Shown in pieces: positions 33,746-50,997 of a stretch of DNA of 54,483 nucleotides. Position 1 is the first letter of the stretch, and each line of letters starts with the position of its first letter. The position numbers were made by a program, and so were the translations under genes. This DNA is from Sterolibacterium sp. Lineage in GTDB: Bacteria > Pseudomonadota > Gammaproteobacteria > Burkholderiales > Rhodocyclaceae. Under the pieces are notes generated by a model. That model did not search any database, was not told the origin of the DNA, and saw only the letters and a program-made list of their open reading frames with translations. The DNA is taken from NCBI GenBank assembly GCA_018061005.1, contig JAGOVA010000014.1:1-54483 (forward strand), given 5' to 3'.

Positions 33746-34648
33746 TCAAACAAACTTCGCAATCACCTGATCAGCATATCGCCGGATGGCATCCTGCTTC
33801 ATCTGTAGCGTGGGCTGTTGCTGCATGATCTTGCCGACCCCTTCCTCGGCTGCCATACCGGGGATCGCCCAGGGGGTGACCTGCAGATCGGTTACGCCCA
33901 GATCTTCCAGGCGTTTGATGTCGTCGATGGAAGTGGCATCCGGGCAGTGCAGCATGATGTCAAACGGCGCATGCTCGCGGCCATATTCGCGCCGGTAGCG
34001 GTTCAGTTCGTCGATGATGGCGGGGATTTCCGCCTTGTTATGGATCACGCTGAGCCAGCCATCGCCCAGGCGCGCGGCACGCTGCATGGCGGGGGAGGTG
34101 GCACCACCGACGTAGATCGGGACTTTTTTCTTCGGCGTGGGCGCCATGATGACGCGATCGAAGTCGATGAGCTTGCCGTGAAATTCCTGAAAACCGCCCT
34201 GCATCAGCAGGCGGATGGCTTGGATGGCTTCGTCCTGCCGCTTGCCACGGGTTTTCATGTCGATGCCCAGCCAGCGGAATTCTTCCGGCATCCAGGCCAG
34301 GCCAACACCCAGCGCGACGCGACCATTGGAAATTTCTGCCACGGAACACAGGCTTTTGGCCTCCAGCAGCGGCTGACGGATCGCCAGTCGCAACACCGAA
34401 GGAATGAAGCGGATGCGCTGGGTCACCACGGCCATGGCGGTGATCGCCACCCACGGATCGAGCACCGGCATGTCCAGCGGCCAGAAGCGCGAGCCGTCCG
34501 GCGTGTAGGGGTAGGGCACGGAAACTTTTTCAGGAAAGAACGGCGCGTCTGCAACCTGGATGCTGTCCCAGGCATGTTCGTCGGCGGTGCGAGCAATGGT
34601 TTGAAGTTCTGCCGGAGGAACCATGAACAGATGGAAACCAAATCGCAT
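33746..34648 (-). CDS. LLM-class F420-dependent oxidoreductase (first)
   Basis: TIM-barrel enzyme of the bacterial luciferase-like family, predicted to use F420 (or FMN) for hydride transfer on an unknown substrate. The 300-residue protein starts MRFGFHL and resembles the TIGR03619-type subgroup, with VALGVGLAWMPEEF and YVGGATSPAMQRAARLGDGW. The AGGAG ribosome site is well spaced. F420 use is inferred from subfamily and from the npdG and cofGH genes 9-10 kb away. It is divergent from the Fe-S oxidoreductase and bounds one side of the accessory island. Confidence 0.85.
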   Translation of the reverse strand: MRFGFHLFMVPPAELQTIARTADEHAWDSIQVADAPFFPEKVSVPYPYTPDGSRFWPLDMPVLDPWVAITAMAVVTQRIRFIPSVLRLAIRQPLLEAKSLCSVAEISNGRVALGVGLAWMPEEFRWLGIDMKTRGKRQDEAIQAIRLLMQGGFQEFHGKLIDFDRVIMAPTPKKKVPIYVGGATSPAMQRAARLGDGWLSVIHNKAEIPAIIDELNRYRREYGREHAPFDIMLHCPDATSIDDIKRLEDLGVTDLQVTPWAIPGMAAEEGVGKIMQQQPTLQMKQDAIRRYADQVIAKFV

Positions 34649-34931
34649 GAGGCGTGCTCCTGAAATGGATGAAAGAGAAAAACCGGTACGACCAGAAAAA
34701 CCGGCTGGTATCGATTGATTCTAATCGGCATAAGCGCTGTTTGGGTTGTGCCAAATTCACCGTGGCGGGTAGTTTCAGTCTTGCGGCTGACGGCATAAAA
34801 CGCTATCTTGACGGGTTCGCGCCGGAGTGACTGAGTGAACGTGGGGCTGTAGCGATCTACCCCGGATCACTCCGCCTGCCCGAACCTGAACCTGATCCTG
34901 ACCTTGATCCTCTGACCTCTTTGAGCCGCCG
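34649..34931. promoter_or_regulatory. 283-base divergent control region
   Basis: Non-coding stretch between the first LLM gene and the Fe-S oxidoreductase gene. It holds two copies of agaaaaaccgg (near 34676 and 34694), a small palindrome CGATT-6-AATCG near 34711-34726, a TTGACG that could be a -35, and a run of CCTGA-like hexamers (about 34885-34915) just before the Fe-S gene. These could be regulator sites; nothing is proven. Confidence 0.4.
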
Positions 34932-36908
34932 ATGTATTCCATATCCGCCATCAATTATGTTTTTCTTACGCTGCTGCTGAGCGCGTCGCTGGTTAGCCTG
35001 GGCTTGGGCCTGCGTAAATACTGGCAGCGTATCGCCCACGGCCAGGCGTATTTCGGCAAGGAAATCACCCAAGAAGCGGTGCTTGCCAAAGTGAACTGGC
35101 GCACCTTCATTCGACGCGGCTTGCTGCTGGAGCGCCTGAAGAAGCGGCCTTTTTCCGGCATTGCCCACAATCTGCTGTTCTTTGGCGCGATCATCGAAAT
35201 CCTGGGGCACGGCCTGTTTCCGTTGAGCTTCATCGGGATCGATGTCTATCACGGGGTATTTGGCCGTTACTTCATGGAGCTGGGGCGCGAAGTGGCCGGC
35301 TTGATGATTTTCACCGGGCTGCTGTTCTTCTTCATCCGTCGTCTGCTGCCGCCGGACCGGCTGACGGCCGCCGGGCATACGCGCAAGGGGTTTACGCCGC
35401 TGGAGGTGTTGCTACTGGTGGCGGTGATCTTCGGTTTTGTTGCTGAAACCTTCCGCCTGACCAACCCGGAGGCCGTCAGCCAGTTCGAGTTCGTCGGCAA
35501 GTATTTCGCCAGCCTGCTGGCGGGGCAGGATGTCCGCGCGCTGGCCACCGGCAATCTGCTGTTCTGGTGGCTGCACATGCTGTTTGGTGTGGCTTTCATT
35601 GCCCTGATCGGCCACACGCCGATGTCGCACATGGTGCTGGGGCTGGCCAATTCCGGGCTGGCGAAGAAGCGTTCCGGCATCACGCTCGCCCCCATCGACT
35701 TCGAAGCCGATGAAAAAGAAGGCGAAGAACTGCTGCTCGGTGCCAACAAGATTTCGCAGCTGAGCCAGAAATACCTGATGGATTTTTCTACCTGCCTGTG
35801 GTGTGGCCGCTGTCATGAAGTTTGCCCGGCCGCGCAGACCGGCAAGGCCTTGTCGCCCAAGTCGATCATGGCCACCTGTGCCGAATACATGGCACAGGAA
35901 AAGTTTGATGACGAGTCGCTGCTCGATGCCATCGGTCAGGAGGCCATTTTCAACTGCACCACCTGCGGCGCCTGTATCGAGCAGTGCCCGGTCAGCAACA
36001 GCCCGGCGGAAGTGGTGCTGGAATTCCGTCGCAATTTCGTCATGGAGCGTTCGGAAATGCCCGACACCATGGCGGCGGCCAATGCCAATCTGGAAAAGCG
36101 CGGCCATCCTTTTGTCGGTACTTCCGCCAATGTCGATGACTGGAAGAAGGGGCTGCCGTTTGAAGTGCCGCTATTTGAGCCGGGCGTAACCGAATATCTG
36201 CTCTGGCTGGGCTGTGCGCCGACCTATGAAGAGCGCGCCCAGAACATCGCCCGCGCCACCGCGCAGCTGCTGAATGCCGCCGGGCTGTCCTGGGGCGTGC
36301 TGGAAGGCCCGCACTGCACGGGCGATCCGGCCAAGATGATGGGTAACGAAATGCAGTTCGTGGAAATCGCCCAGGGCAACATCGAAGAATTCCAGGAAAT
36401 GCAGATCCACAAGGTCATTACCATGTGCGCGCACTGCTTCAACAGCTTCGACCGTTATTACCCCGAACTGGGCGGCCAGTGGCAGACCATCCCGCACAGC
36501 GTGCTGATCGACCGGCTGATCAAGGATGGCAAGCTCAAGGTCAAGGCCAGCAACGAAAAAATCACCTTCCATGATCCCTGCTATCACGCCCGGCACAACG
36601 ACCTCGTCGATGAATCGCGCAGCGTGATTGCCGCCCTCGGCCAGCTGGTGGAAATGCCGCGCCATGGCAAGGACAGCTTCTGTTGCGGCGCAGGCGGCGG
36701 CAATTACTGGGGCGGCCAGGGCGGCACGGCGCGCATCAACGACGTGCGCGCGCAGGAAGCTTTCGATACCGGTGCCGACAAGATCGCCACCGCCTGCCCG
36801 TTCTGCAACCTGATGCTGACTTCGAGCGCGGCGAAACACACCGAACAGCGCAAGGTGTTCGACGTGGCCGAGCTGACGCTGGAACGCCTTGAAGTCCCTT
36901 CTGCCTGA
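34932..36908 (+). CDS. Membrane HdrD-like Fe-S oxidoreductase (ETF:quinone oxidoreductase type)
   Basis: Predicted to take electrons from acyl-CoA oxidation through ETF and pass them to the quinone pool. The 658-residue protein has about five to six N-terminal transmembrane helices (1-240, NarI/cytochrome b-like), two [4Fe-4S] motifs (C288/291/294/298 and C342/345/348/352) and two C-terminal CCG-type domains (HDPCYHARHN, FCCGAGGGNYW, ACPFCNLM). This architecture matches the EMO proteins described for fatty and aromatic acid degraders. No etfAB genes are in the window, so the partner must be elsewhere. It heads the plus-strand CoA gene cluster. Confidence 0.85.
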   Translation: MYSISAINYVFLTLLLSASLVSLGLGLRKYWQRIAHGQAYFGKEITQEAVLAKVNWRTFIRRGLLLERLKKRPFSGIAHNLLFFGAIIEILGHGLFPLSFIGIDVYHGVFGRYFMELGREVAGLMIFTGLLFFFIRRLLPPDRLTAAGHTRKGFTPLEVLLLVAVIFGFVAETFRLTNPEAVSQFEFVGKYFASLLAGQDVRALATGNLLFWWLHMLFGVAFIALIGHTPMSHMVLGLANSGLAKKRSGITLAPIDFEADEKEGEELLLGANKISQLSQKYLMDFSTCLWCGRCHEVCPAAQTGKALSPKSIMATCAEYMAQEKFDDESLLDAIGQEAIFNCTTCGACIEQCPVSNSPAEVVLEFRRNFVMERSEMPDTMAAANANLEKRGHPFVGTSANVDDWKKGLPFEVPLFEPGVTEYLLWLGCAPTYEERAQNIARATAQLLNAAGLSWGVLEGPHCTGDPAKMMGNEMQFVEIAQGNIEEFQEMQIHKVITMCAHCFNSFDRYYPELGGQWQTIPHSVLIDRLIKDGKLKVKASNEKITFHDPCYHARHNDLVDESRSVIAALGQLVEMPRHGKDSFCCGAGGGNYWGGQGGTARINDVRAQEAFDTGADKIATACPFCNLMLTSSAAKHTEQRKVFDVAELTLERLEVPSA

Positions 36909-36950
36909 TTTTTCTCAAACCACGACCCTAAATAACCATGAGGACACCCG

Positions 36951-38135
36951 ATGAGCCGCGCACTTGACGACGTCATCGTACTGGATCTGACCCGGCAGTT
37001 CTGTTCTTCGCTGTCGGGCGCGTTTTTGGCCGATTTTGGCGCGCGCGTGATCCGTCTCGACTTTCTGCCTAAAACCGCTTCGGCCGCCAGCGGCGCGTGG
37101 AACCACGAAGCCGACCTGATCCATCGCAACAAGGAAAGCATCGCCCTCGATCCGCGCAGCGAGCGCGGTGCCGAGCTGCTGAAGCAACTCATCGCCAAGG
37201 CCGATGTCATCCTCACCGACTGGCAGAAGGACGAACTGGCCACGCTGGAACTGGACTACGCCCATGTCAGCGCGCTGCGCGGCGACATCATCTATGGCCG
37301 TTTGTCCGGCTTTGGCCCGGTCGGCCCTGATGCCGACCTGCCCGCCATCGACGAGCTGGCCGCCGCACGCACGGGCATGATGCCGATCCTGCCGCAGCCC
37401 GGTCAGCCGCCGGTCTACACCGGCTCGGGGGCGATGCACGCGTCTGTCATGCTGGCGTTTGGCGTGGTCACGGCGCTGGTGCATCGTGTCGATTCCGGTG
37501 AAGGTCAGGCCGTCGATGTCTCGCTGTTCGGTGCCAACATGTATGGCGCAGCACTGGATATCCAGGCCTTCCTCGCCATTGGCAAGGGCGACCGCCTGCT
37601 CAACCCGATTTCGCGCCTCGATGTCTCCAACCCGATGTCGGGCGCGCTCTACCCGAGTGCGGATGGCCGCTGGGTCACGCTCACCATGCCCGACACCGAT
37701 CGCTGGTGGCCGACCTTCTCGCAACTGGTCGGGATTGCCACCGACGATCCGCGTTTCGATACGCACGAGAAGCGCACGGCGGATCATCGTCTCGAACTCA
37801 TCGACGCGCTGGAACGCGCCTTCCAGACGCAGCCCGGCACGCACTGGCGGCAGGCTTTTCAGGAAAAGCAGCTCTCGGCGGATGTCATCGAGCAGTTTGA
37901 TTATCCGGCTAACGATCCGCAGGTGGCGGCCAACCGCTACATCATGGAACTCGACCACCCGAGCCACGGCAAGCTGCAAACCCTCGGTTTCCCGATCTAC
38001 ATGAGCGAGAGCACCGCGCGGCTGGACAAGCTCGCCCCCTGCACGGGCCAGCACAGCCGCGCCATCCTGCGCGATCTGCTGGGCATGAACGAAGACACCT
38101 ACTATCAACTCAGCGCGGCCGGTGTGGTGGCTTAA
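36951..38135 (+). CDS. CaiB/BaiF family III CoA-transferase, first of a pair
   Basis: Predicted to move CoA between acyl-CoA thioesters and carboxylic acids. The 394-residue protein carries the candidate catalytic Asp134 (PAIDELAAARTG) and the conserved SLFGANMYGAALD region. It is followed after 36 bases by a second, diverged family III gene. Adjacent pairs of this kind form the heteromeric succinyl-CoA:benzylsuccinate CoA-transferase BbsEF, so a heteromer is likely. A GAGGA site precedes the ATG. Substrate unknown. Confidence 0.87.
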   Translation: MSRALDDVIVLDLTRQFCSSLSGAFLADFGARVIRLDFLPKTASAASGAWNHEADLIHRNKESIALDPRSERGAELLKQLIAKADVILTDWQKDELATLELDYAHVSALRGDIIYGRLSGFGPVGPDADLPAIDELAAARTGMMPILPQPGQPPVYTGSGAMHASVMLAFGVVTALVHRVDSGEGQAVDVSLFGANMYGAALDIQAFLAIGKGDRLLNPISRLDVSNPMSGALYPSADGRWVTLTMPDTDRWWPTFSQLVGIATDDPRFDTHEKRTADHRLELIDALERAFQTQPGTHWRQAFQEKQLSADVIEQFDYPANDPQVAANRYIMELDHPSHGKLQTLGFPIYMSESTARLDKLAPCTGQHSRAILRDLLGMNEDTYYQLSAAGVVA

Positions 38136-38171
38136 GCGCACGAAAATTACAAAGATTACGGGGACTACAAC

Positions 38172-39380
38172 ATGGCAAAAGCACTCGAAGGCCTGCGCGT
38201 CATCGATCTTACCGTCTGGTTTCAGGGGCCGGTCGCAGCACAGTATCTCGCCGATTTTGGCGCGGAAGTCATCAAGGTGGAACGCCCCAATGGCGGCGAT
38301 CAGGCGCGCGGTGTGCGTTCCATCAAGTCGCTGGAAATCGGCGACTGGAACCAGTATTTCCTGGTCATCAACCGCAACAAGAAAAGCATCGCCATTGATC
38401 TGAAAAAACCCAGCGGGCAGAAGATTCTCTACCGCATGATCGAAAAGGCCGACGTGTTTCTTTCCAATCTCGCGCCGGAACAGCTCGCCGCCTGGAATCT
38501 TTCCTACGAGCAGCTCGCCGCCATCAACCCCAAGCTGATCTACGCCACCAACACCGGCTATGGTCGTCTGGGCGGTGTGTCCAAGCCGTCTTTCGACATG
38601 ACGGTGCAGGCACTCACCGGGGTCATGGCCCGGCTGGGCGAACCGGGTCAGCCGCCGATCTACATCGGCATGGGCTCGGGCGATGCCTATGGCGGCATCA
38701 TGTCGGCACTGGGCATCATGATGGCGATCTATCAGCGCAAACGCACTGGCAAGGGGCAGGCACTGGATGCCTCGCTGTATGGCGCGCAGCTTTATCTGGC
38801 CGCCCCCCAGCTGCAGGCCTTCCTTGCGGGTGACAAGGGTGCGGCGTTGCAGCAGTCGCGCAAGCAGGTCGAGAATCCGCTGTGGAACCTCTACCCCACG
38901 CGTGGCAAGTGGGTGTATATCTGCGAACCGAATCACGACGTGCGTTTCAATGCGCTGTGCCGCGCGCTGTGCGATGACAGTCTGGCGCAGGATGCGCGCT
39001 TCAAAACGGCCGCAGCACGCCACGAGCACCATGAAGCCTTGATCGAAGTGATCGAGACGCACACCGCCCGCTTCGACCATGGCGGCCTGCTGGCCGCACT
39101 GAAGGCGCAAGGCATCGTCGCCCAGCCGATCAATAATCTGGCGGATGTCATCCGCGACGAACAGGCCTGGCAGAACAACTATTTCATGAAGGCCTACTGC
39201 GAGGAAGTGCAGCGTGATGTCGATGTGCGTGGCCTGCCGGTAACGCTCTCGAAAACCCCCGGCGAGATCAACACGCTCGGCCCGCAACTGGGGCAAGACA
39301 CCGAACTGCTGATGATGGATCTGCTCGGCTATGAATGGGAAGAAATCGAAGCCCTGAAGGCCGAAGGTGCGATTCCCTAA
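38172..39380 (+). CDS. CaiB/BaiF family III CoA-transferase, second of a pair
   Basis: 402-residue partner of the preceding gene, with the more classical active-site region: Asp142 in FDMTVQALTGVM, RNKKSIAIDLKKPSG and DASLYGAQLYLAAPQ. It is the more likely catalytic subunit if the two form a heteromer. The downstream 142-base gap holds a repeat palindrome before the MenB-like gene. Confidence 0.88.
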   Translation: MAKALEGLRVIDLTVWFQGPVAAQYLADFGAEVIKVERPNGGDQARGVRSIKSLEIGDWNQYFLVINRNKKSIAIDLKKPSGQKILYRMIEKADVFLSNLAPEQLAAWNLSYEQLAAINPKLIYATNTGYGRLGGVSKPSFDMTVQALTGVMARLGEPGQPPIYIGMGSGDAYGGIMSALGIMMAIYQRKRTGKGQALDASLYGAQLYLAAPQLQAFLAGDKGAALQQSRKQVENPLWNLYPTRGKWVYICEPNHDVRFNALCRALCDDSLAQDARFKTAAARHEHHEALIEVIETHTARFDHGGLLAALKAQGIVAQPINNLADVIRDEQAWQNNYFMKAYCEEVQRDVDVRGLPVTLSKTPGEINTLGPQLGQDTELLMMDLLGYEWEEIEALKAEGAIP

Positions 39381-39412
39381 GCAAATCCACGCAAACCCAC
39401 GCAACCCTATGA

Positions 39413-39477
39413 CCGTTCGGGCTGAGCCTGTCGAAGCCCATGCTGAAACTGCCCTTCGACAGGCTCAGGGCGAACGG
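39413..39477. repeat. REP-like inverted repeat
   Basis: Two 27-base arms (39413-39439 and 39451-39477) match in inverted orientation at 23 of 27 positions around an 11-base loop. Both contain the TTCGACAGGCTCAG-type core that is widespread as an intergenic repeat in proteobacteria. It lies between the second CoA-transferase and the MenB-like gene and may act as a transcript-end or mRNA-stabilising structure. Confidence 0.8.
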
Positions 39478-39522
39478 ATTGTTGATTGATAAACGAGACT
39501 AAAAACTATAAGGAACACCCCC

Positions 39523-40425
39523 ATGAGCTGGAATGAATGGAGCGTCGTTGAAGGCGACGGACTCAACAACTTCAAGGAAATCATCTACGAAAAGAAGCAT
39601 CATCAGGTGCTCGGCGGGGGCATTGCCCGCGTTTCGCTGAACAAGCCCGACCGCATGAACACCCTGACGCTGGCCACCGTCGATGAAATGTTCCGCGCTT
39701 TTTACGATGCCAACCACGATCCTTCGATCGGCGTGATCATCATCGCTGGCAAGGGCAAGCACTTCGGCGCAGGGGGCGACGTGGACTGGGAACGCTGGGG
39801 GCTGCGTGAAGCCTTCTACAACCGCTATCCGCACAACCGCCTGATGCGGATGTCACGCAAGCCGATCATCGCCCAGGTGCAGGGTTACTGCATCGCCGGG
39901 CATAACCACATGGCGTATTGCTGCGACTTCACCATTGCCGCCGACACGGCGGTGTTTGGCCAGGCCGGGCCGCGCGTCTCCTCGCCCGCCGACGGGTTCT
40001 TCGTGCCTTATCTGACCAAGGTCGTCGGCACCAAGAAGGCGCGTGAAATGTGGATGATGTGCCGCAAATACAAAGCGCCCGAGGCGCTGGCGATGGGGCT
40101 GGTGAATACCGTCGTGCCGCTCGACCAGCTTGAGGCGGAAGTCGACAAGTGGTGTGAGGAACTGCTCGACAAGAGCCCCGGTTGCCTTGAGGTGCTGAAG
40201 GCGGCCTTCGATCAGGAAATGGATGGCTACAAGGAATCCTGTGTGATTTCTGCGGGCATGTATCCCGACTGGTTCGACATGCCGGAAGGCAAGGAAGGCG
40301 GCGCGGCGTTTGTCGAGAAACGCAAGGCCGAGTTCTGGGCGATCCGCAACCGCGAGGCCGAGGCACAGGCGCAGCTGCTCAAGGAATACGAAGAAATCGA
40401 AGCCCAGCGCAAGGCCGGCAAGTAA
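39523..40425 (+). CDS. MenB/BadI-like crotonase
   Basis: Crotonase-fold enzyme of 300 residues closest in pattern to 1,4-dihydroxy-2-naphthoyl-CoA synthase and the ring-opening hydrolase BadI: GAGGD oxyanion loop (82-86), FGQAGPRV, KKAREMW and EALAMGLVNTVVPL. The MenB segment GSFDAG reads SSPADG (153-158), so a key Asp is displaced and menaquinone synthesis is unlikely. No other men genes are nearby. A carbon-carbon ring-cleaving hydrolase or a hydratase in the CoA pathway is a reasonable inference. The C-terminus has an extra charged helix. Confidence 0.8.
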   Translation: MSWNEWSVVEGDGLNNFKEIIYEKKHHQVLGGGIARVSLNKPDRMNTLTLATVDEMFRAFYDANHDPSIGVIIIAGKGKHFGAGGDVDWERWGLREAFYNRYPHNRLMRMSRKPIIAQVQGYCIAGHNHMAYCCDFTIAADTAVFGQAGPRVSSPADGFFVPYLTKVVGTKKAREMWMMCRKYKAPEALAMGLVNTVVPLDQLEAEVDKWCEELLDKSPGCLEVLKAAFDQEMDGYKESCVISAGMYPDWFDMPEGKEGGAAFVEKRKAEFWAIRNREAEAQAQLLKEYEEIEAQRKAGK

Positions 40426-40533: not shown

Positions 40534-41697
40534 ATGCTTAAAGACCAAGCCTGTATCGTCGGCATCGGGGAAACCCCTTACTGCCGCAAACCCGGCTCCG
40601 GCATGTCCGAAATGGCGTTGCAGCTCAAGGCCTCGATCGCAGCCATCGAAGATGCGGGGCTTAAAGCGCAGCAGATCGACGGCATCCTGCCGTTTCCCAA
40701 TCTGGGTAAGGCCGAAGGTTTTGCCGCGAGCCTGGGCTGTGCCAATCTGCGCTTTGCCGCCACGTTGCACATGGGCGGCGCCGCCCCCGTGGCGGGGCTG
40801 CGTGCGGCGGCCATGGCGGTGACTTCCGGGGCGGCCGATTATGTGCTGATCCCCGGCGCGTGGAACGGCTTTTCTGGCGCGCGCGTGCGTGAGACCACCA
40901 CCAACGATGCCGATTCCATCCCCGGTGGCGCGATTGCCCGCGATTTCTACATGCCCTTCGGCTTCACCGCACCGCCGCAGTGGTACGCGCTGATGGCGCG
41001 TCGCCACATGCACGAGTTCGGCACCACCCATGAGCAACTCGGTGCGGTGGCACTGGCCATGCGTAAGCACGCCAACCTCAATCCGGCCGCGCTGATGCAC
41101 AGCAAGCCGCTGACCATGGCGGATTATCTGGCGTCAATGATGATTGCCGATCCCTACAAATTGCTCGACTGCTGTCTGGAAACCGATGGCGGTGCGGCCT
41201 TTATCGTCACCAGCGTGGATCGCGCGCGCGACCTCAAGCAGAAGCCGATTTATGTGATGGGTGCGGCTGCGGGTCAGCCCTATCCGGCAGACGAAATTCC
41301 CAACCGCAAGGACATGCACAAGATCGGCCTGTCCATTGCCGCACCGGAAGCCTTCCGCATGGCGGGCGTGAAGCCAGCCGATATCGATTTCGCGCAGATT
41401 TATGACTGCTTCACTTTTGAAGTCATCCAGCAGCTCGAAGAAGCCGGTTTCTGCCAGCGCGGCGAAGGGGGCGCGTTTGTCGAGAACGGCGGCATTGAAC
41501 TGGGTGGCCGCTTGCCGGTAAATACCCACGGCGGCCTGCTCTCGCATGCCCACTCGCTGGGGGTGGGGCATCTGGTTGAAGCCGTGCGCCAGTTGCGCGG
41601 CGGATGTGGCGAGCGTCAGGTCAAGGATGCCGAAATTGGCGTGGTGACGGGCTGGGGCGACTTCGGCGATGGCAGTATTGCCATCCTGCGGCGTTAA
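40534..41697 (+). CDS. Thiolase-fold enzyme of the Ltp2/BbsB type
   Basis: 387-residue thiolase-superfamily protein of the SCP-x group. Where acyl-forming thiolases carry the nucleophilic Cys, this protein reads HMGGAAPVAG (79-88), with no Cys. The C-terminal DCFT and NTHGGLLSHAHSLG motifs are kept. The loss of this Cys is known from Ltp2-type retro-aldolases, which work with a DUF35 partner; here the next gene is such a DUF35 protein. In the bbs toluene pathway, a thiolase (BbsB) likewise pairs with a DUF35 protein (BbsA). The reaction could thus be retro-aldol or retro-Claisen cleavage. Confidence 0.85.
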   Translation: MLKDQACIVGIGETPYCRKPGSGMSEMALQLKASIAAIEDAGLKAQQIDGILPFPNLGKAEGFAASLGCANLRFAATLHMGGAAPVAGLRAAAMAVTSGAADYVLIPGAWNGFSGARVRETTTNDADSIPGGAIARDFYMPFGFTAPPQWYALMARRHMHEFGTTHEQLGAVALAMRKHANLNPAALMHSKPLTMADYLASMMIADPYKLLDCCLETDGGAAFIVTSVDRARDLKQKPIYVMGAAAGQPYPADEIPNRKDMHKIGLSIAAPEAFRMAGVKPADIDFAQIYDCFTFEVIQQLEEAGFCQRGEGGAFVENGGIELGGRLPVNTHGGLLSHAHSLGVGHLVEAVRQLRGGCGERQVKDAEIGVVTGWGDFGDGSIAILRR

Positions 41698-41712: not shown

Positions 41713-42126
41713 ATGACTGAAACCGCATACAACAAACCCCTGCCCAAGCTGGAAGGCTTGACCGGGGAATTTTACGGCTGGTGTGCCCAGGGCGAGCTGC
41801 GCTTCCAGCGTTGCAAGTGCTGCGGCGCGTGGCGGCATGTGCCGCGTGAAATCTGCGCCGAATGCAGTTCCTTCGACTGGGAATGGGCGAAATCCAGCGG
41901 TCAGGGTACGGTCTACACCTGGACGGTGGTGGAGCGCGCCCTGCATCCGGCCTTCGGCCAGTCCACGCCTTACGCACCGGTGGTGGTGGAACTCGAAGGC
42001 GGCGTGCGGCTGCTCACGCAGCTGACCGACGTGCCCCCGGCCGAACTGAAGATCGGCATGTCGGTGCAGGTCGATTTCAAGGCCGTCACGGCGGAAGTGA
42101 CCCTGCCCTATTTCAAACGCGCCTGA
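41713..42126 (+). CDS. DUF35 OB-fold/zinc-ribbon partner protein
   Basis: 137-residue accessory subunit with a rubredoxin-like zinc ribbon (C34, C37, C48, C51) followed by an OB-fold (GQGTVYTWTVVERALHPAF). Such proteins bind and stabilise thiolase-fold partners (ChsH2 domain with Ltp2; BbsA with BbsB). It lies 15 bases after the thiolase-like gene with a GGGGGAA ribosome site, supporting a complex. Confidence 0.9.
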   Translation: MTETAYNKPLPKLEGLTGEFYGWCAQGELRFQRCKCCGAWRHVPREICAECSSFDWEWAKSSGQGTVYTWTVVERALHPAFGQSTPYAPVVVELEGGVRLLTQLTDVPPAELKIGMSVQVDFKAVTAEVTLPYFKRA

Positions 42127-43071: not shown

Positions 43072-43098
43072 ATTGATTGAATTGATTGAATTGATTGG
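43072..43098. repeat. Three 9-bp ATTGATTGA tandem repeats before npdG
   Basis: Three successive ATTGATTGA units (the last ending GG) lie 12 bases upstream of the npdG-like ATG, inside the expected promoter or leader. The copy number could change by slippage and alter expression. Confidence 0.75.
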
Positions 43099-43109
43099 AA
43101 TCCAACATC

Positions 43110-43784
43110 ATGAGCGAAAAACTCCCCGTTATTGCCATTCTCGGTGGCACCGGCGACCTCGGCACCGGCCTCGCACGTCGCTGGGCGCAGGCTGGTTATG
43201 AAGTCATCATCGGCTCGCGCACGCAAGACAAAGCCGAAGTCGCGGCGGCTGACCTGAAGAAAATCATGGACGAACGCGGTGTGAAAAGTGTCACCGTGCG
43301 CGCCGCCGACAACCTCGCCGCCGCGCAGGCGGCCGATATCGTCGCCATGACCGTCCCCTTCAGCCACCAGAAAAGCACGCTGGAAGGCGTGAAAGACGCT
43401 TTGCAGGGCAAGATCCTGATCGACGTGACCGTGCCGCTGGTGCCGCCCAAGGTTGCCCGCGTGCAACTGCCCGCTGAAGGCTCGGCCGGGCAGATTGCCC
43501 AGGCGTTGCTGGGTGAAAACGTCAAGGTCGTCTCGGCCTTCCAGAACGTCGCCGCGCACCATTTGCAGGAAGGCCAGGGGCTGGAATGCGACGTACTGGT
43601 CTGTGGCGACAGCAAGGATGCCCGCGCCGAAGTGATCAAGCTGGTCGAAGCCGCTGGGATGCGTGGTTTCCACGCCGGCAGCATCGCCAATGCCGCAGCC
43701 GTGGAAGCGATGACCTCGGTGCTGATTTTCATTAACAAGCAGTATGAGTGCCACGCGGGAATCCGCGTGACCGGGATTAAATAA
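43110..43784 (+). CDS. npdG: NADPH:F420 oxidoreductase-like protein
   Basis: Predicted to exchange hydride between NADP(H) and coenzyme F420. From the ATG at 43110 it has 224 residues, beginning with the nucleotide loop GGTGDLGTGLARRW (about 10-23), then the IIGSR strand and a dehydrogenase fold like archaeal and actinobacterial Fno/NpdG. The open frame extends to a TTG at 43095. The presence of a CofGH gene 0.4 kb downstream supports F420 rather than ordinary NADP use. A related oxidoreductase fold without F420 is the main alternative. Confidence 0.8.
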   Translation: MSEKLPVIAILGGTGDLGTGLARRWAQAGYEVIIGSRTQDKAEVAAADLKKIMDERGVKSVTVRAADNLAAAQAADIVAMTVPFSHQKSTLEGVKDALQGKILIDVTVPLVPPKVARVQLPAEGSAGQIAQALLGENVKVVSAFQNVAAHHLQEGQGLECDVLVCGDSKDARAEVIKLVEAAGMRGFHAGSIANAAAVEAMTSVLIFINKQYECHAGIRVTGIK

Positions 43785-44211: not shown

Positions 44212-46725
44212 GTGAAAACAACCATGGGAAACCTCAGCGATCACCGTCTATTGAATACGCAGCAGACGGGTCTTCCATTGGATCGGGGTGCCGCACGGGC
44301 ACTGGCTGATGAAAAAGACATTGCCGCACTGATGGCTGCTGCTGCGGCACTGCGGGATCGCGGCTTCCGCGATGTCGTTACCTATTCGCGCAAGGTGTTC
44401 CTGCCGATCACCAAATTGTGTCGCGATGTTTGCCACTACTGCACCTTTGCCAGCACGCCGCGCGAAGTGGGGCAGGCGTATATGTCGCTCGATGACGTGC
44501 TCACCGCCGCCCACGCCGCGAAGCAGCAGGGCTGCAAGGAAGCCTTGCTGACGCTGGGCGAACGCCCCGAGTTGCGCTACCAGGCGGCGCGCGATGCGTT
44601 GGCGCAGATGGGGTTTGCCACCACGCTGGATTACGTCGCCCATGTCGCGGGCGAAATCTTCCGCCAGACCGGCCTGTTGCCGCACGTCAATCCCGGCTGC
44701 ATGGATGCTGCCGAACTGGCGATGCTGCGGAAAGTGTCGCCCTCGATGGGGCTGATGCTGGAATCCGCATCGCCGCGCCTGGGCGAGAAGGGCATGCCGC
44801 ACTACGGCTCGCCCGACAAGGAACCGGGGCGACGGCTGGAAACCCTGCGACTGGCGGGTGAGGCGAAAGTGCCGTTCACCTCGGGCATCCTGATCGGCAT
44901 CGGCGAAACACGGCGCGAACGCATCGAGTCGCTGCTGGCCTTGCGTGAATTGCACGAACGCTACGGCCACATCCAGGAAATCATCGTCCAGAACTTTCGC
45001 GCCAAGGCCGACACCCTGATGGCCGACGCGCCCGAGCCTTTGCAGGACGATCTGCTGTGGACGCTGGCCGTGACCCGCCTGATTTTTGGCGCGCAGATGA
45101 GCATCCAGGTCCCGCCCAATCTCAACCCCGGCGTGCTGCCGCAATTGATCGCGGCGGGCATCAACGACTGGGGTGGCGTGTCACCCGTCACGCCCGATTT
45201 CGTCAATCCCGAAGCCCCCTGGCCGCACCTCGATCAACTGGCGCAGGAAACCGCCGCCGCCGGTAAGTTCCTGCAAGAACGTCTGACCATTTATCCCGAA
45301 TACGCCCTCGACGGCGCGCAGTGGCAAGATGCCAGCCTGCGAACGGCCATCCTGCAAAGCATCGACGGCGAAGGGCTGGCGCGCACCAATGACTGGATAC
45401 CCGGACAGGATCAGCCCCTGCCGGCCGAAGACCTGCGCTGGCTGGAACCCCCGGTGCTTGTCGAAGATGTTAGTGCTGACTTACGCGCTATTGCCCACCG
45501 TGCCTCGATGGGTGCGGAGCTGACGGAAGCCGAGATCGTCCGTCTGTTTCAGGCGCGCGGGGCGGAGTTCGGCTATGTTTGCCAGCAGGCCGACCGGCTG
45601 CGCCAGCAGGTCAATGGTGAAACCGTCCGCTATGTGGTGACGCGCAACATCAATTACACCAACGTCTGTTACTTCAAGTGCCAGTTCTGCGCCTTCTCCA
45701 AAGGCAAGCTTTCCGAAAACCTGCGCGGCCAACCGTATGACCTGGATGAAAGCGAAATCGCCCGCCGCTGTCAGGAAGCCTGGGCGCGCGGCGCGACCGA
45801 AGTCTGCCTGCAAGGCGGCATCCATCCCGATTACACCGGGCAAACCTACATCGACATTCTCGACATCGTGCGCAGGGTCACGCCTGAAATGCACATCCAC
45901 GCCTATTCGCCGCTGGAAGTCTGGCAGGGTGCGGCGACGCTGGACATGCCGGTCGAAGACTACCTGCGCCAACTCAAGGCGCATGGCCTCAATACCCTGC
46001 CCGGCACGGCGGCCGAAGTGCTCGATGACGAAGTGCGCGCCGTGCTGTGCCCCGACAAGATCAACACCCGGCAATGGATGCAGGTGATCGAAACCGCGCA
46101 TGTCGTGGGTCTGCAAACCACCGCCACCATCATGTTCGGCCATGTCGACCGCTACCAGCACTGGGCGCGGCATTTGCGGCGGGTACGCGAGATCCAGACG
46201 GGAACAAAAGGCTTCACCGAATTCGTGCCGCTGCCCTTCGTGCCGATGGAAGCGCCGCTCTACCTGAAGGGACGTGCGCGCAAAGGGCCGACTTTCCGCG
46301 AAGTCCTGCTGATGCACGCCGTGGCTCGCCTCGCGCTGCACGGCCAGATCGACCACATCCAGGCCTCATGGGTGAAACTGGGCGACGACGGGGTGCGTGT
46401 GGCACTCGAGGCGGGCTGCGATGATGTGGGCGGCACGCTGATGAATGAAACCATCACCCGTGCTGCCGGTGCCACCCATGGCGAAGGCAAAACCCCGCAG
46501 GAACTCGAAGCCCTCATTCTCAAGGCCGGTCGCCAGCCGCGCCAGCGCAGCACGGATTATGGTGATGTCAGCAGCGAACGCCAGCAGGCCGGTCGCCACG
46601 CTGCACCGCTGGCAGCCGTCATCAACAATATGGACAGCGGCAAAGCCAGCGGCAAGCCGCGCCGTCTACTGGTTCGCTTTGCTGTTGAAACGGAGAACAA
46701 GGAAATAGGCGGCTGTGCGCGATAG
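44212..46725 (+). CDS. fbiC: Fused CofG-CofH (FbiC-type) FO synthase
   Basis: Makes 7,8-didemethyl-8-hydroxy-5-deazariboflavin (FO), the chromophore of coenzyme F420, from tyrosine and a flavin-pathway intermediate. The 837-residue protein has two radical SAM halves with CX3CX2C clusters: C70, C74, C77 in the CofG half and C486, C490, C493 in the CofH half. Archaea and cyanobacteria keep two genes; the fusion is typical of actinobacteria and scarce in proteobacteria. The GTG at 44212 or the ATG at 44224 may start it. A polar C-terminal tail of about 70 residues is unusual. No cofC, cofD or cofE genes are in the window. Confidence 0.93.
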   Translation: MKTTMGNLSDHRLLNTQQTGLPLDRGAARALADEKDIAALMAAAAALRDRGFRDVVTYSRKVFLPITKLCRDVCHYCTFASTPREVGQAYMSLDDVLTAAHAAKQQGCKEALLTLGERPELRYQAARDALAQMGFATTLDYVAHVAGEIFRQTGLLPHVNPGCMDAAELAMLRKVSPSMGLMLESASPRLGEKGMPHYGSPDKEPGRRLETLRLAGEAKVPFTSGILIGIGETRRERIESLLALRELHERYGHIQEIIVQNFRAKADTLMADAPEPLQDDLLWTLAVTRLIFGAQMSIQVPPNLNPGVLPQLIAAGINDWGGVSPVTPDFVNPEAPWPHLDQLAQETAAAGKFLQERLTIYPEYALDGAQWQDASLRTAILQSIDGEGLARTNDWIPGQDQPLPAEDLRWLEPPVLVEDVSADLRAIAHRASMGAELTEAEIVRLFQARGAEFGYVCQQADRLRQQVNGETVRYVVTRNINYTNVCYFKCQFCAFSKGKLSENLRGQPYDLDESEIARRCQEAWARGATEVCLQGGIHPDYTGQTYIDILDIVRRVTPEMHIHAYSPLEVWQGAATLDMPVEDYLRQLKAHGLNTLPGTAAEVLDDEVRAVLCPDKINTRQWMQVIETAHVVGLQTTATIMFGHVDRYQHWARHLRRVREIQTGTKGFTEFVPLPFVPMEAPLYLKGRARKGPTFREVLLMHAVARLALHGQIDHIQASWVKLGDDGVRVALEAGCDDVGGTLMNETITRAAGATHGEGKTPQELEALILKAGRQPRQRSTDYGDVSSERQQAGRHAAPLAAVINNMDSGKASGKPRRLLVRFAVETENKEIGGCAR

Positions 46726-47488
46726 CAGGCACTCACGTCTTGGCGATGGCGTGGTGCTGGTCGTCGGCGGCAGTGGCGGCATGGGCAGCGTCATCTGCCA
46801 GCACTTCGCCGCGCAGGGCTGCGATGTCGCGCTGACCTACCACCGCAATCCAGCCCGTGCCGCAACCGTGGCGCAAGCCGTTCGCGCCCAGGGGCAGCAC
46901 GCCAGCGTGCATGGCATGGACATCGCCGACGCCGCCAGCGTGGCCGCCACCATTGCAGAAATCACCGCCACCCAGCGCATCCACACCGTGATCGTCGCCA
47001 GCGGTTCGGACATCGACCAGCGCCGCATCGCCGACCTCACCCCCGCGATGTGGCACAGCGTGCTCGCAGCCGACAGCAACGGCTTCTTTCATCTGGTGCA
47101 CCACACCCTGCCGCATCTACGCGCCGCAGGCGGCGGCTCCTATGTGCATCTCTCTACCTGCGGCCTGCAACGCTGGCCCGATGGCGACGCACTGTCCGTC
47201 GCTCCCAAAGCCTGTAACGATGCCCTGCTGCGCGGCATCGCCCGCGAAGAAGGCCGCCACGGCATCCGCGCCAACGCCATCGCCGTCGGCGTCATCGAAA
47301 GCGGCATCTTCCTGCGCCTGAAACAACAAGGCCATTTCGACGAGCGCTGGCATCAGGCCGTACAACGCAACCTGTGCCTCAAACGCTACGGCCAACCCGA
47401 AGAAGTCGCCGAAGCCGCCTGGTACCTCGCCACCGCCGCCTATGTCACCGGCCAGACCCTCGCGGTTTCTGGCGGGTATGGGGTTTGA
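46715..47488 (+). CDS. SDR-family protein with altered catalytic residues
   Basis: 257-residue Rossmann protein starting from a GTG that overlaps the end of the FbiC-type gene by 11 bases, so it is probably co-translated with it. The cofactor loop GGSGGMG (18-24) and the C-terminal VTGQTLAVSGG are typical of SDRs. At the catalytic YxxxK position it has SVAPK (S161, K165): the Tyr is replaced by Ser, and the usual Ser 13 residues earlier is Thr148. It may be non-catalytic or use a modified mechanism. A decayed partial copy lies at 48796-48954. Confidence 0.87.
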   Translation: MRDSRHSRLGDGVVLVVGGSGGMGSVICQHFAAQGCDVALTYHRNPARAATVAQAVRAQGQHASVHGMDIADAASVAATIAEITATQRIHTVIVASGSDIDQRRIADLTPAMWHSVLAADSNGFFHLVHHTLPHLRAAGGGSYVHLSTCGLQRWPDGDALSVAPKACNDALLRGIAREEGRHGIRANAIAVGVIESGIFLRLKQQGHFDERWHQAVQRNLCLKRYGQPEEVAEAAWYLATAAYVTGQTLAVSGGYGV

Positions 47489-47623
47489 GAGAGCGGATCG
47501 ATGACGAGGCGTGCGCCCGTCAGATCATCTGGATAAGCAGGCGCTTGCCGGGGCTGCGGTGAGACAAACCCCAGGAGGAGGCGGATAATTGGGGATTGCA
47601 CCCGTAATCGAAAAGAGGAAGTC

Positions 47624-48769
47624 ATGGCTACGACCACCACACGCAAACCCCAGCGTTCCGCTACCCCAAAAACAACCCCGCCTATGACCAACACCGCCAA
47701 GGCACCGCGCCGCGCCCCTGCCAAGGCGCGTCTTGCCTCGGCAGGTGACATCGGGCCCATCAGCTCAGCGGAAAAGATTGAAACGAATGTGGTCACCCAG
47801 GCGGTGGACGCTGCCCAGCAAGCCCGGCTGGCGGCCTTGCGCGACATTGTTTCCGGCACGACGGCTGACGAGGCGCGCGACCTCCTGCACGGGCTGCTCA
47901 AAGAGCAGCAACTGAGCACGGAAAAGAACATCATCAATCCCGATCTTGAGCTGGCCGCAGCTTGGCGTGAGGGCGGGTATCCGTACAAAAATCTGATGGC
48001 CCGCCGTAATTACGAGGGGCAAAAATATCGCTTGCAGGTTGAGTTGCTCAAGCTGCAAGCCTGGGTGAAGGAAACCGGCCAGAAAGTGATCATTCTCTTT
48101 GAAGGCCGTGATGCGGCTGGCAAAGGGGGCACGATCAAGCGGTTCATGGAACATCTCAACCCACGGGGCGCGCGCGTCGTCGCTTTGGAAAAACCCAGCG
48201 AGATCGAACGCGGTCAGTGGTATTTTCAGCGCTATGTGCAGCACCTGCCGACCGCCGGTGAAATCGTGCTGATGGATCGTTCCTGGTACAACCGCGCCGG
48301 GGTCGAGCGTGTCATGGGTTTTTGTTCCAACGCCGAGTATTCCGAGTTCATGCGTCAGGCACCAGAATTCGAGCGCATGCTGGTTCGCAACGGTACGCAT
48401 TTGATCAAGTTCTGGTTCTCGGTCTCGCGCGAAGAACAGCGCCGCCGCTTCAAAGAACGCAAGGTGCACCCGCTCAAGCAGTGGAAACTCTCGCCGATTG
48501 ACATGGCCTCGCTGGATCGTTGGGATGACTACACCAAGGCCAAGGAGTCGATGTTCTTCTACACCGACACGGCCGACGCCCCCTGGACCGTGATCAAGTC
48601 AAACTGCAAAAAGCGCGCGCGCCTGAATGCCATGCGTTACGTCCTGCACCGGCTGTCCTACGCCAACAAGGAAGTCGAACACATCGGCCAACTGGACCCG
48701 CTCATCGTCGGCCGCGCCAACGTGGTATACGAACAAGGCGAGCACCAGCTCAACGTGCCGTTGCTGTAA
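47624..48769 (+). CDS. ppk2: Polyphosphate kinase 2 family protein
   Basis: Transfers phosphate between polyphosphate and nucleotides. The 381-residue protein has a Lys/Ala/Pro-rich N-terminal tail (1-40), then the PPK2 kinase domain with Walker A EGRDAAGKGG (160-169), the MDRSWYNRAGVERVMGF lid and Walker B region, and FKERKVHPLKQWKLSPID. The AAGAGGAAG ribosome site is strong. It lies between the SDR gene and the decayed SDR copy, so it may have entered with a local duplication. The subclass (GTP/ATP direction) cannot be read with certainty. Confidence 0.92.
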   Translation: MATTTTRKPQRSATPKTTPPMTNTAKAPRRAPAKARLASAGDIGPISSAEKIETNVVTQAVDAAQQARLAALRDIVSGTTADEARDLLHGLLKEQQLSTEKNIINPDLELAAAWREGGYPYKNLMARRNYEGQKYRLQVELLKLQAWVKETGQKVIILFEGRDAAGKGGTIKRFMEHLNPRGARVVALEKPSEIERGQWYFQRYVQHLPTAGEIVLMDRSWYNRAGVERVMGFCSNAEYSEFMRQAPEFERMLVRNGTHLIKFWFSVSREEQRRRFKERKVHPLKQWKLSPIDMASLDRWDDYTKAKESMFFYTDTADAPWTVIKSNCKKRARLNAMRYVLHRLSYANKEVEHIGQLDPLIVGRANVVYEQGEHQLNVPLL

Positions 48770-48996: not shown

Positions 48997-50001
48997 TCAT
49001 CCATTCATCAACTCGTCGATCAGCCCCCATTCCAGTGCGGTCGCTGCGTTGATGCGTTTGCAGGATAAGGCCAGCCATGCGGTGCGTTGGCGGCCGATGC
49101 GGCGGGGAAGGCTGACGCAGCCGCCCGCGCCGGGGATCAGGCCGAAGCGGAGTTCGGGGAGCTGGAAGAAGGTCTTTGGTGAGGCCACCACATGCTGGGC
49201 GAAAGCCGGCAGTTCGATGCCTGCGCCAATGCAGGCGCCGTGCAGATGGCATTCGACACGATCGGCGCAGCGCGCCAGCAGTGCGCTGGGCAGGCGCAGG
49301 CTGCGGATGGCGTGGGCGCTGGCGGGGTCGGGCGTGCTGCCGAATTCGTCGAGGTCGCCGCCGGTGCTGAAGCAGTCGCCGTTGCCACGGAGGGTCGCGC
49401 GGGTGATGGTGCTGTCGGCGAGCAGCAGTTGCAGTGCTTCAAACAGGGCATCGCGCATGTCGACGGACAAGGCGTTGCGACGCTCGGGGCGATTGAGGCG
49501 GATGTCGAGCAGATCGCCTTGCCGGTTCAGTTGCACGGCGGCTTCTGCAAAGCCCGTGTGGCTCGGTTTGCGCGGGTTTTCTTTCAGCCAGGCACGGAAT
49601 TCGCGCCCTCCCTGCAGGGTGGCGTACGCTAGGGATTCGATGGTGAGTGCTGCGGCAACGGGCAAGCCCGCCGTGACGCGTAGCGTCTGTACCAGCACCG
49701 TCGCGGCCAGCGGCGCGCGTTCGATGTGGGTGAGCAGCGGGGTTGCGGCAGTGATATCTTCGACGACGACGTCATAGACATCGCGCCACGGATCGTCAAT
49801 ATCTGCACCGATGGCGATGACCGGGCAGCTCTGGCGCAGCAGCCAGGCGGCGACGGTTTCACGTTCGCGAGCCTCCACGGGACAGGCGGAGGACTGCACT
49901 AGCAGGTAGGGGGGCGCATCGAATGGCGACGGCATCGACACCGACGCGCCGGGCAGGGCGGCAAGCTCGGGGAGTTGCGCGGCGGAAAGCGTCGGATTCA
50001 T
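48997..50001 (-). CDS. Crotonase with a degenerate N-terminal crotonase-like half
   Basis: 334-residue protein of the enoyl-CoA hydratase/isomerase superfamily. The C-terminal two-thirds (about 155-334) is a crotonase core with GAGIELPAFA and LPELRFGLIPGAGG, keeping both catalytic-type Glu residues. The N-terminal 150 residues are not a standard extension: they include LAATVLVQTLRVTAG and ESLAYATLQGGREF, a pattern I associate with similar long actinobacterial crotonases. The gene follows the second LLM gene on the minus strand after 126 bases, with a hairpin in the gap. Reaction unknown. Confidence 0.82.
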   Translation of the reverse strand: MNPTLSAAQLPELAALPGASVSMPSPFDAPPYLLVQSSACPVEARERETVAAWLLRQSCPVIAIGADIDDPWRDVYDVVVEDITAATPLLTHIERAPLAATVLVQTLRVTAGLPVAAALTIESLAYATLQGGREFRAWLKENPRKPSHTGFAEAAVQLNRQGDLLDIRLNRPERRNALSVDMRDALFEALQLLLADSTITRATLRGNGDCFSTGGDLDEFGSTPDPASAHAIRSLRLPSALLARCADRVECHLHGACIGAGIELPAFAQHVVASPKTFFQLPELRFGLIPGAGGCVSLPRRIGRQRTAWLALSCKRINAATALEWGLIDELMNG

Positions 50002-50121: not shown

Positions 50122-50127
50122 GCGCGG

Positions 50128-50997
50128 TTACAGTTTGGCAATCACCTCGTCGCCAAAGCGGCGGATGCCGTCGATCTTGGCTTGCGTGGTGAGGCTTTCG
50201 TCAAACGGGTTCCAGCCCAGCGCGCAGGCATCCGTCACGCCCAGGTCGCGCAGTTGCTTGAAGTCGTCCAGGCTGTAGGCGAACTGGTTCATGGCATGGA
50301 TGCGGAAGTCCGGGTGTTTGTCGGTGCCGTATTCGCGGCGATAGCCGTTGAGCTCATCGATCAGCTTCTTCAGCGTATCGGGTTCGCTGTTGGCCGAGAA
50401 CCAGCCGTCGCCCAGGCGTGCGGCGCGTTGCAAGGCGGCCTTGGCGTGGCCGCCGATGATGACGGGAATCGGCTTTTTTGGCACGGGGCACAGGCGCAAC
50501 GGGCCGAAGTCGTAGTTGGCACTGTGGTGTTCAAAATACACGCCCTGCTGGGCTGCACGGATGATCTGGATGACTTCGTCAAAGCGTTCGCCACGTTTTT
50601 CAAACGGCACGCCGTTGTAGGTGAAGTCTTCTTTCCACGGGCTGATACCCGCGCCGAAATCGATACGCTCGCCGCTCATCACCGACAGCGAGGTGAGTTG
50701 CTTGGCGAGGATCAGCGGCTGGCGCATTGGCACTTTCATCACGCCGCAGCAGAAACGCAGTTTTTTGGTCGCAGAGGCCATGAAGGACATGGCGACGATC
50801 GGTTCGATGAAGGGCGATACTTCGAGAAAGCCACGGATCATGTCGTGGTCGGAATAGGGATATTCCGATTCGGTGGCCTGGGGGAAGAAAAAACTGTCGG
50901 GAACGCTGAGGGTCGTCCAGCCCGAGTCTTCCGCCGCTTGAGCCACGGCGACGTAGTCTGCATAGCCACCGATACCGGTCATCAATGTATAGCGCAT
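50128..50997 (-). CDS. LLM-class F420-dependent oxidoreductase (second)
   Basis: 289-residue luciferase-like oxidoreductase related to the first LLM gene (both have QRAARLGDGW, a RREYG segment and a C-terminal IRR...VIAK). It keeps an AGISPWKEDF loop and VPVPKKPIPVIIGG-like strand. The AAGGAG site precedes the ATG. It lies 21 bases after the TPR gene of the exb cluster on the same strand and so may share that transcript. Coenzyme is inferred to be F420; FMN is the alternative. Confidence 0.85.
   Translation of the reverse strand: MRYTLMTGIGGYADYVAVAQAAEDSGWTTLSVPDSFFFPQATESEYPYSDHDMIRGFLEVSPFIEPIVAMSFMASATKKLRFCCGVMKVPMRQPLILAKQLTSLSVMSGERIDFGAGISPWKEDFTYNGVPFEKRGERFDEVIQIIRAAQQGVYFEHHSANYDFGPLRLCPVPKKPIPVIIGGHAKAALQRAARLGDGWFSANSEPDTLKKLIDELNGYRREYGTDKHPDFRIHAMNQFAYSLDDFKQLRDLGVTDACALGWNPFDESLTTQAKIDGIRRFGDEVIAKL

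Follow-up and report, generated by a model that had tools for sequence, protein, structure and literature searches.

Positions 33,746 to 50,997 of the 54,483-nucleotide stretch analyzed here (the window), which is the whole of contig C129 of a 3.08-Mb Sterolibacterium sp. genome (135 contigs, 93% complete), hold an island of genes that probably forms part of the oxygen-independent 2,3-seco degradation of steroids in a Sterolibacterium-like betaproteobacterium and makes use of the hydride carrier F420. This judgement joins two parts: that the island belongs to steroid catabolism we regard as very likely from the gene comparisons below, and, given that it does, its luciferase-like oxidoreductases (LLMs) are likely to use F420 there; the placing of the cassette at a particular step is graded separately. 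The core of the island is a six-gene cassette encoding, in order, two CoA-transferase chains (CoAT1 and CoAT2), a MenB/BadI-type crotonase, an Ltp2-like 'thiolase', a DUF35 protein and a second crotonase (ECH2). A first-pass annotation had proposed an F420-linked CoA route for a ring or branched acid in a betaproteobacterium. The host agrees with a Sterolibacterium-like genome and a CoA-dependent, ring-cleaving route is still the best reading, although the substrate class lay beyond the reach of that annotation. Profile searches recovered every family that it had named in the 17-kb block (two LLMs, NpdG, CofGH, CoA-transferases, crotonases, the thiolase-DUF35 pair and an EMO-type protein).

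The steroid assignment begins with the rest of the genome. Contig C80 encodes IpdA (57%), IpdB (60%) and IpdC (50%) together with two acyl-CoA dehydrogenases (ACADs), a FadA6-like thiolase and one LLM, and contig C105 carries an AtcA-type operon (77, 79 and 68% to Aromatoleum anaerobium) next to a CoA-transferase. The AtcA label rests on position and on the report of atcABC in Thauera terpenica and T. butanivorans (PMC9980454), the two Thauera in our scan; in either genome the AtcA-type query finds one match at E 1e-40. The A. anaerobium subunit is the comparison sequence. The 10.8-kb contig C37 holds the row SDR-ACAD-ACAD-SDR-MaoC-NTF2-ligase-CofE-CofD-CofC, in which the ligase exceeds the FadD3-family model cut-off (744.3 vs 657) and the encoded proteins are collinear with those of the HIP (steroid ring C/D) cluster on Novosphingobium aromaticivorans pNL2, at 39–65% identity. 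No match to PF19298 (KshA_C), a mark of KshA and the aerobic 9,10-seco route, was found in this 93% complete assembly. Together, the IpdABC genes, the AtcA-type operon, the FadD3-type operon and the absence of a KshA_C match point to the oxygen-independent 2,3-seco route. On C80 a thiolase-fold and a DUF35 gene lie between those for IpdB and IpdC (L063:10410-12150), the site that EchA20 (67% to N. aromaticivorans) occupies in A. anaerobium and T. terpenica. Of the reading frames within the first 40 kb of C80 none ranks EchA20 as one of its two best matches, and the ring D hydrolase of this genome may be located elsewhere or replaced.

The same associations recur in other genomes. Scanning genome contigs for CoAT2 relatives yielded 33 loci, of which 26 were kept as orthologous (59–90% identity, L091 partial) and seven (L090 and L092–L097, 29–35% identity) were dropped as non-orthologous. 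The scan finds relatives by exact peptide patterns, omits near records of the window's genome and is not a census; Sterolibacterium denitrificans, Steroidobacter denitrificans and Denitratisoma are not among its listed genomes. L091, on a cut contig, counts within the 26 genomes and outside the 25 loci used for flank and active-site counts. All six cassette genes occur in order in 18 of the 26 loci, including L070 with a 1.2-kb internal gap; three to five genes are present in L066, L068 and L078, L091 is cut, and four Myxococcota or Deltaproteobacteria metagenome-assembled genomes (MAGs) hold CoAT1-CoAT2 only. Among the hosts are four Aromatoleum or Azoarcus species, T. terpenica, T. butanivorans, Halieaceae, a Steroidobacteraceae MAG and two Sterolibacterium MAGs. 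CofGH is found in all 26 genomes (as separate CofG and CofH pieces in Myxococcota) vs 14 of 199 controls from the order (15 of 200 with the window's own genome), and IpdA in 23 of the 26 vs one of 199 (two of 200). The AtcA-type molybdenum subunit is present at 59% or more in 26/26 and in none of 15 controls at 40% or with comparable scores, the 14 F420-positive, cassette-free genomes reaching 33–39% and G093, a genome with IpdA and KshA, giving no better E value than 9e-41. The Fisher values for these CofGH, IpdA and AtcA-type counts (3e-24, 4e-27 and 2e-11) are guides only, because the genomes are related by descent, were selected in different ways and are in part incomplete.

The MenB/BadI-type crotonase of the cassette has no match above 46% in the other 199 members of the order, and around the CofGH genes of 14 other order members no cassette was seen beyond a crotonase adjoining CofGH in G055 (45%) and an ECH2 match in G181 (37%). 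Five other members of the window's family gave no CofGH at 1e-80, no IpdA at 1e-60 and no LLM2 relative at 1e-20. If the cassette instead degraded some other alicyclic compound, such as a monoterpene or a cyclohexane derivative, its hosts would be steroid degraders by coincidence of lifestyle. The hosts do include T. terpenica, isolated on a monoterpene, and Aromatoleum diolicum 22Lin, isolated on a cyclohexane diol, and BadI works in cyclohexanecarboxylate breakdown. This explanation is nevertheless highly improbable in view of IpdA and the AtcA-type gene accompanying the cassette in 23 and 26 of the 26 hosts across Beta- and Gammaproteobacteria and Myxococcota or Deltaproteobacteria, of the nine genomes in which cassette and AtcA-type gene share a contig, and of the two Sterolibacterium MAGs among the hosts.

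The rest of the genome is informative for F420 as well. The genes cofC, cofD and cofE, which the first-pass annotation wanted sought elsewhere in the genome, all lie on C37, and their products exceed the NCBIfam equivalog cut-offs of the TIGR03552, TIGR01819 and TIGR01916 models (CofC 148.5, CofD 301.7 and CofE 275.6 bits). With the fused FO synthase CofGH of the island (44212..46725, plus strand; NF006687 1131.4 bits, cut-off 1018) the predicted set for F420 synthesis is complete, and the NADPH-dependent F420 reductase NpdG (43095..43784, plus strand; TIGR01915 205.8 bits, cut-off 149.8) is predicted to pass hydride from F420 to NADP and back. The genome's three LLMs all score above the TIGR03619 cut-off of 166.9 bits: LLM1 (33746..34648, minus strand) at 196.3, LLM2 (50128..50997, minus strand) at 167.8 and the C80 LLM at 203.3. 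LLM2 orthologs (at least 51%) occur in 18/26 cassette genomes vs 0/20 controls; among the 14 F420-positive, cassette-free genomes ten have best matches of no more than 35%, and the other four, G093 and the five family members give nothing at 1e-20.

The CofGH phylogeny bears on the same question. In a tree of 34 rows, which covers the window and 18 of the 26 cassette genomes with the best piece of each (it omits the fragments L116 and L117 and the six genomes for which no CofGH locus was retrieved), the 19 cassette rows do not form one clade and need four label changes, at least three of them on strong branches. The pattern can reflect several gains, or a gain with losses; different CofGH lineages alongside the same cassette speak for need and not for hitch-hiking. 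This bears on the possibility that the island LLMs use FMN, or that F420 serves an unrelated process and its steroid-gene neighborhood is incidental. LLM2 passes the F420 model by only 0.9 bits, and LLM1 has FMN-type LLM structures among its remote relatives. Set against this are the closest solved relative of LLM1, the F420-dependent enzyme Mer, the scores of all three LLMs, the finding of LLM2 orthologs only in genomes with CofGH and the mixed cof lineages, and we consider such an explanation quite improbable. Copy numbers vary among the relatives: the three Myxococcota MAGs reached through L086-L088 (G221-G223) have 14 to 20 LLM matches at 1e-20 vs three in the window's genome, a single contig of A. 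anaerobium (G205:C13) bears two full-length CofGH genes that are ~100 kb apart and each adjoin further cof genes, one of T. butanivorans (G218:C20) likewise bears two CofGH, and Azoarcus Aa7 has three.

Relatives of the C80 LLM (68–72%) stand in a row of CoA-transferase, CoA-transferase, LLM, crotonase and atc genes in A. anaerobium, T. terpenica, Azoarcus Aa7, G206, G207 and G216. T. butanivorans, on a contig that starts inside the LLM gene, shows the same LLM-crotonase-atc row and is the seventh genome with an LLM in the atc operon; the T. terpenica row has a SnoaL-like gene that separates the crotonase from the atc genes. One could go further and propose both that F420 is the dedicated hydride carrier of proteobacterial anaerobic steroid degradation and that the LLM of the atcABC operon is an F420H2-using reductase that removes the delta-4 double bond to provide the substrate of AtcABC. 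This joint proposal is doubtful, its reductase role being suggested by just two points, the place beside atcABC and the account, in the relevant section of a 2019 review, of ADD being reduced before AtcABC acts (PMC6678751).

Physical linkage in relatives shows which parts of the island are constant. On one 11.8-kb contig of a Sterolibacterium MAG (L065) the ten genes EMO-CoAT1-CoAT2-crotonase-aldolase-DUF35-crotonase-NpdG-CofGH-SDR lie in the same order at 80–94%, and since ten genes from EMO to SDR recur in order their grouping is not due to chance; a second Sterolibacterium MAG (L066) has the first four genes from EMO at 83–91% before its contig ends. Within the flanks examined at the 25 loci, LLM1 lies near the cassette in three (L075, L079 and L082, orthologs of 75–78%), LLM2 in two, EMO in five, ECH3 in six, NpdG in three and CofGH in one. 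The genes thus do recur together, as the first-pass annotation had anticipated, but given these inconstant companions the 17-kb grouping as such is a Sterolibacterium arrangement, the cassette is the constant unit, and the F420 link is one by genome and wider island. Equating contigs of equal size, we found cassette and AtcA-type gene on the same contig in 9/26 genomes (G202-G206, G211, G216-G218) and cassette and CofGH in 8/26 (G200, G202-G206, G211, G216). In A. anaerobium the HIP genes, the atc operon, the cassette, LLM2-ECH3 and two cof sets fall within ~160 kb, and in the Steroidobacteraceae MAG IpdA, CofGH, LLM2, the AtcA-type gene, EMO, the cassette and NpdG fall within ~80 kb.

The residues of the cassette proteins narrow down their likely chemistry. 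CoAT1 (36951..38135) and CoAT2 (38172..39380), like the rest of the cassette on the plus strand, are both class III CoA-transferase chains with PF02515; in all 26 aligned rows (window plus 25 for each chain) CoAT2 has Asp and CoAT1 has His at the catalytic position, so the two CoA-transferases first seen are there by family, one of them without the catalytic Asp, a residue that we take to be catalytic by analogy with formyl-CoA transferase. The 'thiolase' of the presumed thiolase-DUF35 pair (40534..41697, adjoining the DUF35/ChsH2-type OB-fold gene at 41713..42126) lacks both thiolase Cys, with Ala or Ser and a Gly/Trp stretch in their place in the rows viewed (window and four orthologs, for this protein and for the MenB/BadI-type crotonase), and thiolysis was rejected on this ground. 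Its Tyr290 is invariant in 21/21 rows (window plus 20), and its best solved relative is 6OK1, titled a lipid-transfer protein, at 261 bits vs 108 bits for BbsB. We take 6OK1 to be Ltp2 of the Ltp2-ChsH2 aldolase and its active-site Tyr to have the presumed role there; the cassette protein with its DUF35 partner is thus probably an aldolase and not a thiolase. The MenB/BadI-type crotonase (39523..40425; window plus 21 rows) lacks both hydratase Glu in the rows viewed, and ECH2 (42154..42933), which is EchA19-like, keeps both. The former falls in the MenB/BadI subgroup (~42–46% identity, 28% to EchA20). Naming it plain BadI (221 bits vs the TIGR03210 equivalog cut-off of 467.6) or plain MenB (228.9 vs 380 for NF005637; 197 vs 342.7 for TIGR01929) was rejected.

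Such residues could fit acid activation by CoA transfer, enoyl-CoA hydration, a retro-aldol split and C-C hydrolysis. In the mechanism that we favor, the CoA-transferase pair would activate the product of ring A cleavage, an acyl-CoA dehydrogenase from a linked cluster would form a double bond with electrons passing via the EMO-type protein to quinone, ECH2 would add water to the enoyl-CoA, the Ltp2-like aldolase with DUF35 would release acetyl-CoA by retro-aldol cleavage, and the MenB/BadI-type crotonase would hydrolyze a ring bond en route to HIP, with the LLM enzymes shuttling hydride between F420 and keto or enone intermediates. The pathway section of the review gives a series of activation, double bond formation, hydration, retro-aldol release of acetyl-CoA and ring-B opening to which genes are not assigned (PMC6678751), and we infer that the cassette may match it. 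Its section 13 calls the enzyme that activates the ring A cleavage product unknown and names no ring-B hydrolase candidates in Sterolibacterium. Placing the cassette between ring A cleavage and HIP is, given the pathway, a tentative assignment at slightly less than even chances.

Several observations weigh against this account. IpdA is missing in three cassette genomes (G214, G219, G224) and LLM2 in eight, with best matches of 39–46%, and the low counts of LLM1, LLM2, NpdG and CofGH near the cassette (3, 2, 3 and 1 of 25 loci) have been given above. The window contains no acyl-CoA dehydrogenase, and the evidence for the account is sequence-based throughout. The diketone left after acetyl-CoA release carries no CoA, and BadI and MenB act on thioesters. 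For 2,3-SAOA, moreover, the review leads one to expect an acyl-CoA synthetase and not a CoA-transferase (PMC6678751). KshA_C, a mark of the aerobic route, is present in 16 of the 26 genomes, which means that the cassette is not confined to strict anaerobes, and a claim to that effect was dropped. The matches include T. terpenica and T. butanivorans, at odds with PMC9980454, where just a single strain out of 26 Thauera is said to combine atcABC with kshAB.

If the cassette belongs to steroid catabolism, it could also act elsewhere in it, either on the last two rings in HIP degradation (for example replacing EchA20, the hydrolase of ring D) or in removing the side chain. Aldolases of the Ltp2-like type are known to act on side chains, and the thiolase-fold/DUF35 pair on C80 sits between ipdB and ipdC at the very place of EchA20 in A. 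anaerobium and T. terpenica. EchA20, too, groups with MenB (PMC5380842), and a published cluster listed within the ring C/D clusters ends with two CoA-transferases, an acetyl-CoA acetyltransferase, an unknown protein and an enoyl-CoA hydratase (SEDNCHOL_10337-10341; PMC6678751), possibly this cassette minus the MenB/BadI-type gene. However, EchA20 (67%) coexists with the cassette crotonase (83%) in A. anaerobium and T. terpenica, no such cassette is seen in the HIP clusters of N. aromaticivorans pNL2, G093 with IpdA and KshA is absent from the genomes that match the cassette crotonase, and the cassette occurs with AtcA-type genes in 26/26 genomes. We therefore rate a placement in HIP or side-chain degradation as a real but minor possibility and retain the one between ring A cleavage and HIP.

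The remaining genes of the island surround the cassette. The EMO-type membrane Fe-S oxidoreductase (34932..36908, plus strand) has CCG, Fer4 and nitrate-reductase-gamma-like domains, and an SDR oxidoreductase (46715..47488, plus strand) follows CofGH as it does in L065 (80%). A PPK2 polyphosphate kinase (47624..48769, plus strand), of which no relative was seen in the steroid islands of the other genomes examined, is a candidate pathway member at most. The plus-strand run from 34932 to 48769 is real, with gaps of -11 to 161 bases except for 427 between npdG and cofGH, and includes the SDR and PPK2 genes that the first-pass annotation had left unnamed. Its count of 'two or three crotonases' resolves into two full ones and ECH3 (48997..50001, minus strand), a partial one whose match spans only positions 4–173 of 251 behind an N-terminal extension and which adjoins LLM2 in several steroid islands. 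The flanks look like housekeeping genes, with LolB, a GHMP kinase and DUF456 on the left and TPR, two ExbD and one MotA/TolQ/ExbB protein on the right, and the G+C content of the island (0.611) lies within that of its flanks (0.594–0.615). A molybdenum hydroxylase or cofC to the left (29548-33730), guessed from gene sizes, was discarded when family searches gave TPR, LolB, GHMP kinase and DUF456. Farther away, at 20095-21744, an Adhesin_E-like domain is fused to a eukaryotic-type carbonic anhydrase domain.

We also considered and rejected a plasmid island of wide distribution: CoAT2 has no plasmid match at 1e-60, and the four plasmid CofGH regions examined lack the cassette, though they hold other CoA genes. 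An alphaproteobacterium provides a second case of F420 linked to steroid genes: on Sphingobium herbicidovorans plasmid pMSHV CofGH lies ~3.5 kb from a HIP-type operon (L007:19938-36314; up to 57% to C37 proteins); pMSHV also carries an LLM 40% like LLM2 (L060:12001-12870), and Sphingobium TomTYG plasmids have similar LLM and acyl-CoA dehydrogenase genes. Sinorhizobium meliloti strain R28 pSymA presents a further neighborhood of F420 and CoA genes (L008:16726-34348), in which a cof cluster with NpdG adjoins two CoA-transferase subunits, an LLM of TIGR03619, a transhydrogenase and a set of the XDH family. Plasmid 2 of Aromatoleum aromaticum EbN1 has a complete cof set and NpdG ending in a crotonase gene (L005:5190-26447), with a row of DUF35, thiolase and acyl-CoA dehydrogenase ~12 kb from the cof set among insertion sequences.

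Sterolibacterium holds a model anaerobic cholesterol degrader (PMC6208644, PMC6678751), and part of what we describe is already in print. A figure legend of the 2019 review lists the C37 row in reverse for Sterolibacterium denitrificans, SEDNCHOL_10763 to 10772 (PMC6678751), which we take to be acd5, one of two clusters said to carry HIP to central metabolism. The linkage of F420 and HIP genes was thus visible there, listed without comment; the pathway section of that review does not mention F420. Among the papers searched, Sterolibacterium denitrificans and F420 are named together in this review and in a paper on early bioenergetics, the text of a 2024 Sterolibacterium paper does not contain 'F420', and no role of F420 in anaerobic steroid degradation appeared in the titles and abstract openings surveyed, subscription papers being outside their scope. 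Why Proteobacteria make F420 is named as unanswered in a passage of a 2021 F420 review (PMC8498797), and the present reading would supply both a class of substrates and specific genes for it. For activation of the ring A product and for ring-B opening without oxygen the cassette offers a set of candidates open to testing, the island probably supplying steps, so far unassigned, in the O2-free breakdown of cholesterol and hormones; if so, its genes would be markers for oxygen-free steroid removal in wastewater and sediment.

Finally, we compared the island with known systems. The cassette crotonase shares its subgroup with MenB and BadI at the identities given above, in contrast to them staying below both equivalog cut-offs. 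The aldolase resembles Ltp2 (6OK1) in the conserved Tyr and the DUF35 partner, and differs in having His where 6OK1 has Tyr, in the NTHGG region. Like the bbs operon of anaerobic toluene degradation (BbsEF, BbsH, BbsAB), the cassette combines a CoA-transferase pair, a hydratase-type crotonase and a thiolase fold with DUF35, and 9FN0 and 7PXP are among its solved relatives; unlike that operon, it has a thiolase-fold protein without Cys that is nearer to 6OK1 than to BbsB, and an extra MenB/BadI-type crotonase. The HIP clusters of N. aromaticivorans pNL2 and Mycobacterium tuberculosis (PMC5380842) share the ordered C37 proteins and IpdA (57%), whereas in pNL2 a thiolase that is missing in C37 precedes FadD3 and the stretch examined has no cof, LLM or cassette genes. 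Closest is the 2,3-seco pathway of S. denitrificans with its clusters acd1-acd5 (PMC6678751). The part of the acd1-acd5 list at hand lacks an NpdG-CofGH-LLM island with a MenB/BadI-type crotonase, although SEDNCHOL_10337-10341 may be part of the cassette. In common are the C37 order CofC-CofD-CofE-ACS3-steroid isomerase-hydratase-SDR-two ACADs-SDR, the IpdABC-like genes of C80 and the AtcA-type operon beside a CoA-transferase on C105. The island is, in this comparison, a variant of a known steroid pathway and not a new kind of system.

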